Shown here piece by piece: positions 17,673-35,755 of a stretch of DNA of 38,379 nucleotides. Within the stretch, counting starts at the first letter, position 1, and the number at the start of each line of letters is the position of its first letter. This DNA comes from a virus, in IMG/VR virus record IMGVR_UViG_3300043399_000021, positions 1 through 38,379 of that record, one strand, 5' to 3'. The notes beneath the pieces are model-generated. The model worked only from the letters and a program-made list of their open reading frames with translations. It had not been told where the DNA came from and did not search any database. The translations under genes and the position numbers were made by a program.

Positions 17673-17987
17673 TTATGCTCCAATGCCAATGGGGTTTCCC
17701 ATTGTAATACCTGAAGCTGCCTCTACAACCTTGTAAACGGTTGGAAGGTCAATGTTGTCTTCTAGAGCCTTGAGGTCTTCTGCGAGCTCAGGCTTGTACT
17801 GACGCATTGCAATCTGGACACACTGCATGAGTACATCCATTGACTTTGCGTTGTCGTCTGCTACTGTGGCGACCTCTTCGAACTTCTTCATGAAGTCACG
17901 GAGTAAAGAGATCTTGAGAGGGCGAACTGCGATTGTACTTCCATCTAGAAGTGTTAGTTCTGTTGCCTCATTAACTGTTGTTGCCAT
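17673..17987 (-). CDS. Tail assembly chaperone, short form (G-like)
   Basis: The 104-residue product is a paralogue of the N-terminal half of the neighbouring 241-residue gene. Both have LLDG near residue 15, PLKI with a downstream LR-x-FM, a Cys-x3-AM-x-QY-x-P stretch and the identical string DLPTVYK near residue 85. Tail assembly chaperones coat the tape measure protein while the tube polymerises around it, and are normally made as a short form and a frameshifted long form. Here the short form is its own gene, with an extended -10 (TGGTATACT) and a strong Shine-Dalgarno (AAGGAGGA) in the 44-base gap upstream. It ends 21 bases before the tape measure start. Identification is by this paralogy and by position. 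Confidence 0.85.
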   Translation of the reverse strand: MATTVNEATELTLLDGSTIAVRPLKISLLRDFMKKFEEVATVADDNAKSMDVLMQCVQIAMRQYKPELAEDLKALEDNIDLPTVYKVVEAASGITMGNPIGIGA

Positions 17988-18015
17988 TTAGTTCCTCCTT
18001 GTTTGGCTTATTAAA

Positions 18016-18024
18016 AGTATACCA
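18016..18024 (-). promoter_or_regulatory. Extended -10 promoter TGGTATACT before short tail chaperone
   Basis: The minus strand reads AATATGGTATACTT, a 14-base string repeated exactly at 27129-27142. It lies 29 bases before the ATG at 17987, leaving a short leader that includes AAGGAGGA. No -35 match is visible. Confidence 0.55.
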
Positions 18025-18031
18025 TATTGAG

Positions 18032-18757
18032 TTATTTATTTTTAGACTTTTTACCGCCACCGAATGGCTGTTCTCCAGGCTGGACTCTAGAATAGCCTAG
18101 CCCATTGCCAATACCAAAACCAGCATTTGCTGCATTCTGACCTTGTAGTGCAAGAATGTCATTTGCATCTTTTGCCTGTCCACCACTGAATACTCTAGCT
18201 TTCATTTCTTCCCAAGCGTTCTGCTTTCCAGATTGCTGGTCAATGTCGATTCCCTGAATTGCAGCAAAGAACTTCTTTTCATTATAGTCTGTCTCTCTCT
18301 TTGCCTCAAGAGTTGCTACTAGCTCTGGCATTGACAGTGAGGACTCAAGCTCATGGTAGTCTTTCCAAATACCCAGCAAAAATACCTCTGCCTCAAGTTT
18401 TGCTAAATCCATTTCGTCCCAAGAGCTACCACTATCTACAGCTTGATCTTTTACAGTTTCCTTAGAATCTTTGTCTACCTTGACACCAGCTGCATAATCT
18501 AATATTTTGTATACAGTTGGCAGGTCTACTAGGTCTTCGAATTCTTCTAACGTGTTTATGTCTGGCAAGTATTGCTTCATTGCTACCCTTGCACAGTACG
18601 TCAGACAGGTTATTGCCTCTTCGTCATTGTTAGCCTGTTTGATAAGTGCAAACGAAGACATGAACTCACGAAGATACAAAATCTTAAGTGGAGTTGCCAA
18701 AAACTCTCTTCCGTCTAATAGTTCTACTATTCCAACATCATATATTTTAGTTGCCAT
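18032..18757 (-). CDS. Tail assembly chaperone, long form (GT-like)
   Basis: The 241-residue product contains the complete two-domain chaperone in one uninterrupted frame. Residues 1-95 match the short-form neighbour (DLPTVYK, AM-x-QY). Residues about 108-185 carry the T-like part (WDEMDLAKLEAEVFLLGIW, then a LEAKRETDY stretch), and a Gly/Lys-rich tail ends GGGKKSKNK. In most siphoviruses this long form arises by a -1 frameshift. No shift is needed here. I chose the ATG at 18757, since a TATAAT box ends exactly 6 bases upstream, which would place the transcript start at that A. The ATG at 18760 would lie upstream of that transcript start. There is no Shine-Dalgarno. It follows the major tail terminator, so it begins a new transcription unit. 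Confidence 0.87.
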   Translation of the reverse strand: MATKIYDVGIVELLDGREFLATPLKILYLREFMSSFALIKQANNDEEAITCLTYCARVAMKQYLPDINTLEEFEDLVDLPTVYKILDYAAGVKVDKDSKETVKDQAVDSGSSWDEMDLAKLEAEVFLLGIWKDYHELESSLSMPELVATLEAKRETDYNEKKFFAAIQGIDIDQQSGKQNAWEEMKARVFSGGQAKDANDILALQGQNAANAGFGIGNGLGYSRVQPGEQPFGGGKKSKNK

Positions 18758-18763
18758 CATTCT

Positions 18764-18772
18764 ATTATAGCA
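18764..18772 (-). promoter_or_regulatory. Extended -10 promoter TGCTATAAT, leaderless start for long tail chaperone
   Basis: An exact TGnTATAAT lies between the hairpin terminator (18780-18805) and the chaperone start. The predicted +1 is the A of the ATG at 18757. The -35 region would overlap the terminator stem and shows no TTGACA-like sequence. Confidence 0.62.
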
Positions 18773-18779
18773 AAGACAA

Positions 18780-18805
18780 AGCTACCCAGCCGAAACTGGG
18801 TAGCT
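18780..18805 (-). terminator. Rho-independent terminator after major tail protein gene
   Basis: On the minus strand a 10-base stem AGCTACCCAG with perfect complement CTGGGTAGCT encloses the loop TTTCGG and is followed by TTGTCTTTG. It lies 24 bases after the major tail stop. The stem is perfectly paired and GC-rich relative to its surroundings. Confidence 0.88.
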
Positions 18806-18829
18806 CTGAATATTTAGTTATACAGCTTA

Positions 18830-22640: not shown

Positions 22641-22649
22641 ATTATATCA
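22641..22649 (-). promoter_or_regulatory. Extended -10 promoter TGATATAAT after capsid terminator
   Basis: An exact TGnTATAAT lies 11 bases downstream of the capsid terminator stem and 19 bases before the ATG at 22621. The predicted start near 22634 leaves a 12-13 base leader with CAGGAGG. No -35 is visible, since that region is the terminator itself. Confidence 0.6.
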
Positions 22650-31576: not shown

Positions 31577-32548
31577 CTATACATAAACGTCAACAATGAC
31601 GATTCCAATCGCACCAGCTGATCCAGATCTTGCAGTTGTTTGTGACTGAGTATTTGTTCCACCAGTTCCTCCACAACCTTTATTTGTTGATGATACTGAG
31701 CCACCAGATGCTCCAGTTGTGACTGCTGATGGTGGCTCTGCATTTGGGAACATTGCTGTTCCGCCACCAACATTTGTGTATGTATCTGTAGCATTAAGTT
31801 GATTTCGTACTCCAGACGCTTCTCCAAGAATAATTATATCTCCAACATCACCAGTAGTGTTTGGACTTGTTCCTGAATCAAAGTCTGGAACGGTAGTCGC
31901 CACTCCACCACCGCCACCGTTTCCTCCAACAGCAACAACAAGTGTCCCAAAACTGCTATTACCACCATCGGTTCCAGCGTTTCCACCTGCTGTACCACCT
32001 GCACCACCTGCACCTACAGTCACTGTTTCTGTTGTGCCTAATGCTGATGCAAGCAAAAACTTTTCTGCATAGTTTGCTCCAGAGCCACCTGCACCATTTG
32101 CAACTTGTGACGCTCCAGTAGTAGCGGCTCCACCGCCGCCACCGCCACCGCCGATACAGCGAACTCTTACAGCTCTAATTCCAGAATAGTTTGCCTTAGT
32201 AAAAGTACCACTGGCTGTAAAATAAACTGTTTGCAAATAACTGTATCCAACAGTTGTGGCAAGACCTGCCTCCGTAGGAGTCTTATTTATCCATTTGCTT
32301 GTTGCTGTGTCGTATGCTAAAACTTCGTTGTTTGCTGGAGTTCCATCGATCACAACGTCAGAGAGGCTGTCAATTGGAAAACTTTCTACAATATATGGTA
32401 GTGATGTCCAGGCGGTAGAGCCAGTTCCGATCTTAAACTTACCAGTATTTGTCTCTACCCCAATTTCTCCAGCACTAAGTGTTGGATTAGTAGATGTCCA
32501 GTTTGATGATGTATCTCGTCTAAGCTTAATTGTTGACTGTGCTGGCAT
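31577..32548 (-). CDS. Mtd-like N-terminus plus Gly-rich adhesin, 323 aa (paralogue)
   Basis: Residues about 7-52 (LRRDTSSNWTSTNPTLSAGE, then TGKFKIGTGSTAWTSLPYI) are nearly the same as in the 408-aa adhesin and match the Mtd-type attachment domain. A fibre-like linker NEVLAYDTATSKWINKT near residue 75 is shared with the 433-aa fibre upstream. The tip is Gly-rich, starting VRCIGGGGGGGG near residue 130, with GGAGGTAGGNAGTDGGNSS, and it ends GAIGIVIVDVYV. It would bind a host receptor. The start overlaps the previous stop (TAATG) and has GGAGG 9 bases upstream. Two paralogous adhesins side by side suggest alternative or mixed host recognition. Confidence 0.85.
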   Translation of the reverse strand: MPAQSTIKLRRDTSSNWTSTNPTLSAGEIGVETNTGKFKIGTGSTAWTSLPYIVESFPIDSLSDVVIDGTPANNEVLAYDTATSKWINKTPTEAGLATTVGYSYLQTVYFTASGTFTKANYSGIRAVRVRCIGGGGGGGGAATTGASQVANGAGGSGANYAEKFLLASALGTTETVTVGAGGAGGTAGGNAGTDGGNSSFGTLVVAVGGNGGGGGVATTVPDFDSGTSPNTTGDVGDIIILGEASGVRNQLNATDTYTNVGGGTAMFPNAEPPSAVTTGASGGSVSSTNKGCGGTGGTNTQSQTTARSGSAGAIGIVIVDVYV

Positions 32549-33849
32549 TATGCACTACCTCCATCAATTGTTCCAGTAAACGATGTTCCAGCAATTGGTC
32601 CATTAACTGTAAAGTTTGCTGCAACCGTTTGTCCAACGATAACGTCTCCTCCATCTGGATTTATTAGCAGTGTGGCTGCTGTTCCATTATTAAATCTACT
32701 AATCTCATTTTGATCAATTCTTAAATTAATTCCGTCACTTGGACCAATCTGAAATGCATGTGTTGTAGAAGAGCTTGTTGCATCATCGGTTGCCGTAAGT
32801 CTAAGTGTGGGAGACTCAATATTGCCAGTAAATGTGGCACCTGAAAGTGCAGCTAGTCCTGCCTCTGCTGCTGTTTGGTTAATCCAAAGACCAGATGTTT
32901 CGTCATAGGCAAGGACTTCATTGTTTGCTAGTGTTTCCTCAATAGTCACACCGTGAAGTTCTGTAAGTTCGTATCCGTTTTGGATTTTAACAATTACTTC
33001 ACCAGCACTAGCGTGTGCTTTAACTACATACCCCAAAAATACTACGTGTGCTGGTTCAGAAGGTGCTGTTTGAGTAAATTGTCCTGCAGTCTGTGAAAGA
33101 TAGATTGCCCCACCCTCAGTAAGCCCATCAGTATTTACTCCACGGAGAACACCTTCTGTTACAACAAAGCCTTCTGCACCATCTAGAATTTGCTCTGCTA
33201 CAAAACCAAATGTCTTGCTTGATGTGGTTTCTGTATCTGCATCAGCAAGTGCAACTGTGGGCATTTGCCCTTGAGCACCATTAATATATACAACAGATCC
33301 TTTAGATAGTGTGGAACCTGTAGAATTCTTTACAGTAATAAGAGATTCTTGTCCAAGACCAATTGTTACGTTTGCATTTAAAACTGCTTTTGGAATACCG
33401 TCTCCAGAATCCCAAAAAATTGTTCCTGCATCTGTCGATGGTGAAGTTGGGGTGGTATCAAAAGTAATGGCATTTATAGCAGTTAGATCTGCGTCTACTG
33501 CAATAGTAATAGTGTCTGATGTAGAATCACCAGTAATTCCAATGTTTACACCATCGGCAAAAGTAATTGTATCTGTGGCTGAGTCTGCTACAGGGTTTGT
33601 TCCAGATGGGACGGCAAAAGTAGTAAACGAGTTACCTCCACCACCTGCACCAGTAGCATCTGTATCGTTAACCCAGTTTGTGCCATTCCATTTAAGGACT
33701 TGTCCAGTGGCAACGTCAGTAATAACAACGTCTCCAAGAGCGTTTATAGACGAAGCGGTAGTAAGAACGTCATTACCGTTAACAGTTGCATTTGCACCCT
33801 CAACAATAAGACCGTTCTTTACCCTAAAGTCTTTGTTAGTAGTCGCCAA
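32548..33849 (-). CDS. Tail fibre protein, 433 aa, TTG start
   Basis: The N-terminus (MATTNKDFRVKNGLIVEGA) is the phage fibre attachment motif also present in the next-upstream fibre. A middle domain with AVLNANVTIGLGQESLITVK and GSTLSKGSVVYING is a module widespread in phage fibres, continuing through GAIYLSQTAGQFTQT to IVKIQNGYELTELHG. A WINQTAAEAGLA linker precedes the C-terminal shaft (LRLTATDDATSSSTTHAFQI) and the end. The start is TTG at 33849, preceded by AAGGTGAT. The nearby ATG is out of frame. An extended -10 (TGGTATAAT) lies upstream, flanked by an inverted repeat. It is probably a trimer mounted on the baseplate. Confidence 0.83.
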   Translation of the reverse strand: MATTNKDFRVKNGLIVEGANATVNGNDVLTTASSINALGDVVITDVATGQVLKWNGTNWVNDTDATGAGGGGNSFTTFAVPSGTNPVADSATDTITFADGVNIGITGDSTSDTITIAVDADLTAINAITFDTTPTSPSTDAGTIFWDSGDGIPKAVLNANVTIGLGQESLITVKNSTGSTLSKGSVVYINGAQGQMPTVALADADTETTSSKTFGFVAEQILDGAEGFVVTEGVLRGVNTDGLTEGGAIYLSQTAGQFTQTAPSEPAHVVFLGYVVKAHASAGEVIVKIQNGYELTELHGVTIEETLANNEVLAYDETSGLWINQTAAEAGLAALSGATFTGNIESPTLRLTATDDATSSSTTHAFQIGPSDGINLRIDQNEISRFNNGTAATLLINPDGGDVIVGQTVAANFTVNGPIAGTSFTGTIDGGSA

Positions 33850-33902: not shown

Positions 33903-35279
33903 TTAGGCTTCGATGTATGTCTTGCTGACCTTAAAGACAACACCACTTGCAGTTGATGTGGCTGATAGAACCACGGCTCCTGTAGAATATGTTGCTGTAA
34001 ATTCAGCTAGTGATGCATTTGAGTAAACATTTGCATACTCTGTGATGTAAACGTTATTGCTTCCATCTACTGCAACGAGAAGTTCTGTAACTTCGATGTC
34101 TCCAGAGCCGTTCTTAGCCTGAATGACATACTTTGCTGTTGAGTATGTTGATGTTGACCATGTATCAATATCTGCTGTTGTTCCAGTTGATGTTGCTGTC
34201 TTGCTTCCAAGAAGAACATCTGGAAGTGTAACTGATGCAACTGTAGCAGTTGACGCTGCGTCGAATGAGTAAGTGACTGTATCGGTTGTACCATTGACTG
34301 CTACTGATAAACCAGTACCTGCAGCAAATGTAAGGGTATCGTTGCTTGAGTCTGGTGAAGCAGTGTTTGTCCCATCTGAAATTGTTCCAAATAGGTTTGT
34401 GCTTCCACCAGTTGCAATTTCAGCATCTGTTGCTGCACCGTTGCTGTCTCCAGGTGTAGAAACATACCAAGCATTGGCTGTCTCGTTCCAGTAGATCTTT
34501 GCGTTAGTGTATGTTCCACGCTCAACCTCAAGACCTGCGTCAAGAGTTGGTGTACCAGTAACATTTGAGTTAAGAACAAAGATATTATCCTCAACGTTCA
34601 TTGTTGCTGTGTTAAGTGTTGTAACATCACCGTTAACTGTAAGGTCTCCAGTAACTGTAAGGTCTCCACCAATAGTTACATCATCTGGAAGACCAATGGT
34701 TACTGATCCAGTGCCAGCAGAAACTGTGATCTCGTTGTCTGTACCAGCAACTGATGTTACACCAGCGTTTGTAAATGTAATTGTGTCTGTTGTAGCATTT
34801 GTGGTAATTGTTACACCAGAACCAGCAAGTGTCAGTGTGTCAGAGGTTGAGTCTGCAACGACATCTGTCTGTCCAGAAACTGACAATGTTGTGAACGCAT
34901 TTGTAACTGTGTTTGTGTCAGTGCTAGAAATTGTGATTGTGTTTTCGTCGGTACGTGTAACAGTTGTTGCACCGCTACCAAGAATTGCAACATCATCTGT
35001 GCTTGAGTCTGATCCAGTAAGTCTTAGGTTTGATCCACCTGTTGTTGAGACTGCACTAACAGAGTATGTTGTGTTATTATCTGTGACGGTAAAGTTAAGC
35101 TTTCCTCCGTCGTCGTCGTATGATACTGAAATACCAGATTCGGTGTTTCCAGTTACCATACCGCCAATTGTGTCCTGAATAATTTCGGGAAGTGTGTCTG
35201 TTCCGACTACAACATCTGTTGCTGCACCCTCAACTACAAGACCGTTCTTGACTCTAAAAGATTTATTTACGGTTGCCAT
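33903..35279 (-). CDS. Tail fibre protein, 458 aa
   Basis: The first 20 residues (KSFRVKNGLVVEGA) are the fibre attachment motif shared with the 433-aa fibre. Residues about 60-210 are Thr/Ser/Val/Asn-rich repeats with DNTITISS-type and TTDTITFT-type strands, a likely beta-helical shaft. A module with DNIFVLNSNVTGTPTLDAG and KIYWNETANAWYV near 225-270 is a well-known phage fibre unit. The last 85 residues (KYVIQAKNGSGDIEVTELLV, then YITEYANVYSN) match the C-terminal domain of the adjacent 148-aa protein. AAGGAGA 6 bases before the ATG gives the start. It would be a trimeric fibre for surface binding. Confidence 0.83.
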   Translation of the reverse strand: MATVNKSFRVKNGLVVEGAATDVVVGTDTLPEIIQDTIGGMVTGNTESGISVSYDDDGGKLNFTVTDNNTTYSVSAVSTTGGSNLRLTGSDSSTDDVAILGSGATTVTRTDENTITISSTDTNTVTNAFTTLSVSGQTDVVADSTSDTLTLAGSGVTITTNATTDTITFTNAGVTSVAGTDNEITVSAGTGSVTIGLPDDVTIGGDLTVTGDLTVNGDVTTLNTATMNVEDNIFVLNSNVTGTPTLDAGLEVERGTYTNAKIYWNETANAWYVSTPGDSNGAATDAEIATGGSTNLFGTISDGTNTASPDSSNDTLTFAAGTGLSVAVNGTTDTVTYSFDAASTATVASVTLPDVLLGSKTATSTGTTADIDTWSTSTYSTAKYVIQAKNGSGDIEVTELLVAVDGSNNVYITEYANVYSNASLAEFTATYSTGAVVLSATSTASGVVFKVSKTYIEA

Positions 35280-35293
35280 GATTTATCTCCTTG

Positions 35294-35740
35294 TTACGCC
35301 TTAAGTCCCATACGAGCAAATCGCACGGTGACTGGCTTTACTGAAGGGTTTGGGGTAACAATAAGTCTAATGCTACCTGAAACCCTAGAGACATTAACGG
35401 TTCCCATATCCCCATCGTTGTCTAGTGTTCCATATTCTGCGACGTGAATGTTAGTTCCGTCGATCAGGATGGTTAGTTCTGTTGCGTAGAATTTGTTAGC
35501 TCCATCAACTACCTTTGAGATTGATACAAGATACTTGACCATTCTCCATTCATCTTCAGGAAAGCTGTCGATGATTGTTGTGTTCTCAATGCCATTGATT
35601 GTTTGCTCATTGTTACCAGCTGTGCCAAGATCTGTAGACTGCTGAATAAGCGTATCAATTAGATTCGCAAAGTCTGTACCGTCTGGAACATCTCCAGTCT
35701 CAAATCTGGCTTTGAGGTTCTCAATGTCAATTCTAGCCAT
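35294..35740 (-). CDS. Small fibre-like protein sharing a tip domain with its neighbour, 148 aa
   Basis: An N-terminal helix (MARIDIENLKARFETGDVPD, residues 1-38) probably trimerises or docks to the baseplate. Residues about 66-148 (KYLVSISKVVDGANKFYATE, then LTILIDGTNIHVAEYGTLD) form a beta domain that matches the end of the 458-aa fibre: both have Tyr-Val/Leu, T/A-TEL, a V/IDG-(S/T)N turn and (T/A)EY(A/G). This looks like a mobile receptor-contact domain. The start has no Shine-Dalgarno, but TATAAT ends exactly 6 bases upstream, so the A of the ATG would be the first transcribed base. Leaderless translation is therefore likely. Confidence 0.78.
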   Translation of the reverse strand: MARIDIENLKARFETGDVPDGTDFANLIDTLIQQSTDLGTAGNNEQTINGIENTTIIDSFPEDEWRMVKYLVSISKVVDGANKFYATELTILIDGTNIHVAEYGTLDNDGDMGTVNVSRVSGSIRLIVTPNPSVKPVTVRFARMGLKA

Positions 35741-35746
35741 ATTAAG

Positions 35747-35755
35747 ATTATATCA
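35747..35755 (-). promoter_or_regulatory. Extended -10 promoter TGATATAAT, leaderless start for 148-aa fibre-like gene
   Basis: An exact TGnTATAAT in the 19-base gap ends 6 bases before the ATG at 35740, which would itself be +1. No Shine-Dalgarno is present. This is the cleanest leaderless example in the window. Confidence 0.65.

Follow-up and report, generated by a model that had tools for sequence, protein, structure and literature searches.

A tandem pair of paralogous tail assembly chaperone genes with distinct start signals, and the probable single loss of a programmed frameshift in a clade of uncultured phages

The DNA analysed here, hereafter the window, is the whole 38,379-nt IMG/VR record IMGVR_UViG_3300043399_000021, and all the features of the locus described below are read on its minus strand. 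The major tail protein gene (19483-18830; phrog_885/2175 matches) is followed on its 3' side by a terminator-like hairpin with a 14-pair stem and a U-rich tail (18777..18808), placed directly upstream of the promoter of a long gene. This promoter is an extended -10 box (TGCTATAAT, 18764..18772) that ends 6 nt before the ATG at 18757; a second in-frame ATG of the same gene is found at 18760. The long gene (18032..18757) encodes a GT-like tail assembly chaperone of 241 aa, has no Shine-Dalgarno sequence and is predicted to be leaderless. Its residues 1-95 constitute a G-like domain (18473..18757; phrog_10504, E 1e-18) and residues 112-241, approximately, a T-like domain in frame with the former (18035..18424; phrog_10474, E 1.5e-13, together with T HMM matches). 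Another extended -10 box (TGGTATACT, 18016..18024) ends 28 nt before the ATG of a short gene, with a Shine-Dalgarno sequence, AAGGAGG (17994..18000), lying between the box and the ATG. The short gene (17673..17987) encodes a G-like chaperone of 104 aa (phrog_10504, E 5e-18), and beyond it lies the tape measure gene (17651-10698; 2317 aa). With the major tail protein gene on one side and the tape measure gene on the other, the pair has the position of tail assembly chaperones, and its neighbours in the equivalent region of Streptomyces and Rhodococcus phages are annotated as the same two genes.

The two genes are paralogues. A first-pass annotation had regarded the short gene as homologous to residues 1-95 of the long one on the basis of shared motifs, and in fact the LLDG, PLKI..LR.FM, AM.QY and DLPTVYK stretches are common to both proteins, which are 38% identical over 94 residues in this part (BLASTP, E 2e-20). 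A comparison of profile against profile, whose failure had been named as grounds for abandoning the homology, detects the same similarity (99.9%, E 1e-36, 96 columns). Moreover, the long gene is an in-frame fusion, as had also been claimed: residues 131-189 are matched by phrog_10474, the T-like part is open in the G frame, and the separate T frame of the relatives aligns onto it. The window pair therefore presents a short and a long isoform with a common N-terminal part, and tblastn retrieves genes annotated as tail assembly chaperones with E values from 1e-27 to 2e-30, the closest annotated relatives being the tail assembly chaperones of Stanwilliamsviridae infecting Streptomyces. From a structural perspective, the AF2 models (pLDDT 80 for the long protein and 73 for the short one) predict the same N-terminal order of strand, strand and helices in both proteins, and the Foldseek/BFVD matches to viral models include tail assembly chaperones and the N15 tail assembly protein GT (E 8e-3). 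Among solved structures no relative was found by sequence, and the structure search gave only generic helical matches. Homology, gene order and fold together indicate that these two genes encode the tail assembly chaperones of a tailed phage, a relative of the Stanwilliamsviridae. Streptomyces and Rhodococcus are the hosts of the closest cultured phages. A cyanobacterial host was considered and rejected: the single match to a genome contig is to a contig of a MAG binned as cyanobacterial, which is no host evidence. This contig, of 110 kb, carries a relative of the frameshift type (L164) and is probably a phage contig binned there. Elsewhere in the window, two neighbouring genes of the minus strand (32548-33849 and 33903-35279) have a common N-terminal pattern, MAT.NK.FRVKNGL.VEG, and from their sequences look like a second paralogous pair, perhaps of tail fibre or appendage proteins.

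The distribution of the two layouts was obtained by a domain scan of 162 related loci. A fused long gene with a short paralogue downstream (GT-G) was found in 128 of them, corresponding to 98 distinct sequences, whereas in 30 others (24 distinct sequences) G and T lie in different frames, with T in the -1 frame; the latter comprise 26 uncultured loci and four from Streptomyces phages. The remaining four loci are truncated, and none of the 162 is intermediate between the two layouts. All 26 uncultured G-T loci carry an in-frame slippery heptamer of the XXXYYYZ type inside the G/T overlap, GGGAAAC in 23 cases and CCCAAAC in three; CCCAAAC and the G-T layout are also present on the MAG contig mentioned above (L164, 10001-10605), while the heptamer of the Streptomyces phages Circinus and Faust is CCCAAAT. 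As for the Rhodococcus phages, a joined G-T is annotated in NiceHouse and Francesca, and two adjacent genes in Trina. The lambda-type organization, that is, T in the -1 frame with a heptamer in the overlap, is absent from the window, and T is in frame with G in all the 128 GT-G loci.

The start signals were counted over 72 non-redundant two-gene loci, in which the long and the short gene have two distinct and conserved initiation architectures. The separate extended -10 boxes reported for the window by the first-pass annotation are conserved over this set, and its reading of a leaderless long gene and a short gene with a Shine-Dalgarno sequence gains support as an architecture from the same loci. 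In the case of the long gene, 69 of the 72 loci have an extended -10 box that stops 4-9 nt short of the start, the distance being exactly 6 nt in 53, as against 8 of 360 random sites with a box at leaderless-type spacing, and a Shine-Dalgarno run of at least five was found in none of the 72. Because of this spacing and of the missing Shine-Dalgarno sequence the long gene is predicted to be leaderless. The usual step from a -10 box to the first transcribed base is 7 nt, and since the box of the window ends 6 nt before the ATG, transcription is predicted to start on the A of this codon. The short gene has its extended -10 box 24-37 nt before the ATG in 72/72 loci, with a Shine-Dalgarno run of at least four in 72/72 and of at least five in 66/72. 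The G genes of the frameshift type start in the same way, with box and Shine-Dalgarno sequence (15/15), and the major tail protein genes nearby show a Shine-Dalgarno sequence in 85/85 cases and a leaderless-type box in 0/85. Furthermore, a hairpin precedes the -10 box of the long gene in every locus (72/72, mean z -6.6) and that of the short gene in only 5/72. Neither gene shows a -35 box that stands out clearly from random sites, the mean number of matches being 2.0 for the long gene, 2.9 for the short gene and 2.6 at random sites.

Other occurrences of such boxes were noted in the window. A second leaderless-type start belongs to an unrelated 148-aa gene (35294-35755, minus strand), with TGATATAAT ending 6 nt before its ATG at 35740; TGATATAAT also occurs at 22641-22649 on the minus strand, about 20 nt upstream of a 157-aa gene at 22621-22148. 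Perfect TGNTATAAT boxes number six in the window against 2.3 expected, all of them on the minus strand.

It is conceivable that the ratio of the two proteins depends on these signals. The first-pass annotation had proposed that its control passed from frameshifting to promoter strength and start type, and on the basis of sequence we infer that the start signals may well set the G:GT ratio. A perfect 8/8 match to the -10 box is found in 71 of 72 short genes, the exception being the window, and in 20 of 72 long genes; locus by locus, the better match belongs to the short gene in 52 cases, the two are equal in 19, and the long gene is ahead in the window alone, where it matches 8/8 and the short gene 7/8, contrary to the promoter-strength proposal. 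The interval between the two genes of the window yielded no terminator, so that transcripts of the long gene should run through the short gene too; with the contribution of the short gene's own promoter added to this read-through, the amount of short mRNA would be expected to equal or exceed that of the long one. At one locus (L032, 5729-6800) two other genes, of 204 and 154 aa, separate the long from the short gene; the promoter of the latter is intact behind this insertion, which fits independent expression. The missing advantage of the short gene's box in the window also lends something to an alternative that we regard as unlikely, according to which the genes are paralogous but the differences between their starts are incidental, the ratio being set by mRNA stability or protein turnover, or no fixed ratio being needed. 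It has to be reconciled, however, with the persistence over diverged loci of the 6-nt leaderless spacing (53/72), the Shine-Dalgarno sequence of the short gene (72/72) and its perfect box (71/72), as well as with the lambda G and GT proteins, reported at 30:1, a ratio described as crucial to tail assembly (PMC5009743).

The time and number of the switches between the two layouts were examined on a tree of five genes or gene parts, namely the major tail protein, three connector-region proteins and the tape measure N-terminus (1410 columns), rooted on the Streptomyces phages. The two-gene loci form one clade with the frameshift loci outside it (FastTree, SH-like 100; IQ-TREE with 52 rows, SH-aLRT 96), and the window is nested well inside this clade. 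The two-gene layout thus has a single origin on the species tree, and for this reason the frameshift appears to have been lost once in the sample; the frameshift state is seen in the uncultured relatives that fall outside the clade and in the Streptomyces and Rhodococcus phages. The duplication, the in-frame fusion and the loss of frameshifting that had been postulated from the window alone are supported by this distribution. In the trees of the G domain the long and the short genes each form approximately one group, which fits one duplication. The T tree places the frameshift rows among those of the long genes; a nesting of the frameshift loci within the two-gene loci was nevertheless rejected, because this alignment is short, its support is weak and the five-gene tree contradicts it.

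The G domain itself leaves room for a rather improbable reading, in which recombination with another phage brought in the G part of the long gene as a xenologue, or the duplication predates the split of the frameshift lineage and the long gene was later lost there. In favour of this, frameshift-type G is nearer to the short G (identity 0.55) than to the long G (0.40), and in the G tree of 163 rows the short genes group with the frameshift-type ones and the long genes with those of the Streptomyces phages, with a support of 97/100. When the MAG sequence is used as outgroup, however, long and short genes make up one side of a branch of the free tree (support 78), although the grouping of short with frameshift-type genes has a p-AU of 0.84, so that both topologies are allowed and the G tree places the duplication neither before nor after the split of the frameshift lineage. 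A faster change of the long G part would yield the same pattern, and in fact the mean identity among loci is 0.49 for the long G domains and 0.66 for the short genes, with the long value lower in 96% of the pairs. Moreover, the T domain of the long genes groups with the T of the frameshift relatives in the T tree, which speaks against a foreign or early origin of the long gene.

With regard to the slippery site, no heptamer is conserved in either gene across the two-gene loci. The first-pass annotation had suggested a search for a residual site near codon 95 of the long gene: none was found in the long gene of the window, and none is conserved there among its relatives. What it had overlooked is a GGGAAAC in the short gene of the window (17694..17700), in frame as G_GGA_AAC at codons 96-98, which is most likely due to chance. 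This heptamer is absent from the short gene of every relative, the -1 reading past it gives PLALEHK and then a stop with no T frame behind, and heptamers at the 3' ends of the short genes number five against 5.2 expected. Its interpretation as a relic of the lost shift was rejected as unproven, given that the window lies deep in the two-gene clade, that its neighbours lack the site and that such sites occur at the chance rate. An in-frame heptamer of some kind is found at the junction of 20/72 long genes, with about seven expected; these are mostly A_AAA_AAN at lysine codons, and their place and kind vary among loci. In nearly all the frameshift loci G ends with TAG in a CTAGA context, and a TAG at the old G stop position is retained in only 40 of 70 long genes, a difference with a Fisher p of 8e-4 if the 15 frameshift loci are all taken to be constrained. 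A remnant of T behind the short gene was suspected at three loci (L044, L046 and L049) and discarded, because the tblastn stretches passed the stop codon of the short gene and reached the beginning of the tape measure region. That frameshifting still contributes, by a slip at the GGGAAAC of the short gene, which is in the canonical frame and identical to the heptamer of the frameshift relatives, or at an A-rich junction of the long gene to give a truncated G in a dnaX-like manner, as some junctions might allow (AAAAAAG in L057, L059, L105 and L136, for example), is very improbable, since neither gene conserves a heptamer, the window long gene has none, the short-gene heptamers do not exceed chance and a shift in the window short gene would add only seven residues, with no T frame after them.

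The explanation that accounts best for these observations as a whole, and that we hold with considerable confidence, is that a frameshifted G-T gene was duplicated once to give separate GT and G genes, with the excess of G over GT set at initiation. In the ancestor, a -1 frameshift at GGGAAAC or CCCAAAC would have allowed a single G-T gene to supply both proteins, and one duplication, most simply on the stem of what is now a large clade of uncultured phages, would have followed. The upstream copy would have turned into a GT fusion read in one frame and started without a leader from an extended -10 promoter of its own, and the downstream copy would have lost T while retaining the promoter, leader and Shine-Dalgarno sequence with which G was expressed in the ancestor; today the two forms would be separate products whose unequal amounts are established at initiation. 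We lean, if only slightly, towards the fuller statement that a frameshift setting the ratio of a morphogenetic protein was replaced once and completely by duplication, a leaderless GT gene with a weaker promoter and a leadered G gene with a Shine-Dalgarno sequence and a near-perfect promoter having moved ratio control to initiation. If true, the frameshift state and the two-gene state can be directly compared in sister phage lineages, in a family where the loss of a frameshift can be put on a tree, the ancestral state survives in living sister lineages and the signals of the replacement are readable in the sequence. Such a family offers a test of whether the frameshift itself is needed, or only the ratio that it provides. 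Furthermore, it presents a G domain that evolves faster once freed from serving both products (mean identity 0.49 vs 0.66), and a leaderless start that apparently forms one half of a dosage pair. A literature search for this combination, which reached few subscription journals, gave no match; to our knowledge, neither a single switch of known polarity nor the pairing of a leaderless with a leadered start has been described so far.

Most long-tailed phages produce the short and long chaperone forms from one gene by a slip of the ribosome, and this frameshift is described as widely conserved. The tail chaperones G and GT of lambda, in particular, depend on a programmed -1 frameshift (Levin 1993; Xu 2004; reviewed in PMC5009743). 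The window pair resembles lambda G/GT in lying between the genes for the major tail protein and the tape measure, in the short G and long GT with a shared N-terminal part and, at the level of the fold, in the match to the N15 tail assembly protein GT (E 8e-3). It differs in having no conserved slippery site, a long form in one frame, and two genes with separate start signals. Judged by sequence and gene order, the closest relatives in culture are the Stanwilliamsviridae (Streptomyces phages Circinus, Coruscant and Faust) and the Trinavirus-type Rhodococcus phages. The G gene of the Streptomyces phages has an extended -10 box and a Shine-Dalgarno sequence like the short gene of the window; unlike the window, however, these relatives have one G gene with T in another frame, and neither a paralogue nor a fused long gene.

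Arrangements of two genes are on record in other phages. In Microbacterium cluster EA phages two separately expressed chaperone ORFs are described, with no evident frameshift in some subclusters, and the portions of these sources that deal with the locus, unlike what is seen in the window, do not describe the second gene as a paralogous fusion of G and T (PMC7302621, PMC11659878). T4-like phages are closer to the window, which also has a separate short gene and a long fused gene with no frameshift: in the outline given by a secondary source, they make the short and the fused long form from one gene each without frameshifting (Vladimirov, Gautam and Davidson 2022, as described in PMC10885494). 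As far as these accounts go, the two-gene arrangement itself is already known. T4 genes 26 and 51, which we take to be the short/long chaperone pair of T4, lie on opposite strands, and gp26 and gp51 are 20% identical, whereas the genes of the window are tandem and collinear, encode products 38% identical and combine a leaderless with a leadered start; the likeness is one of arrangement, and homology is not claimed. Unlike T4 26/51, moreover, the window pair has sequenced relatives in the frameshift state, which polarise the change.
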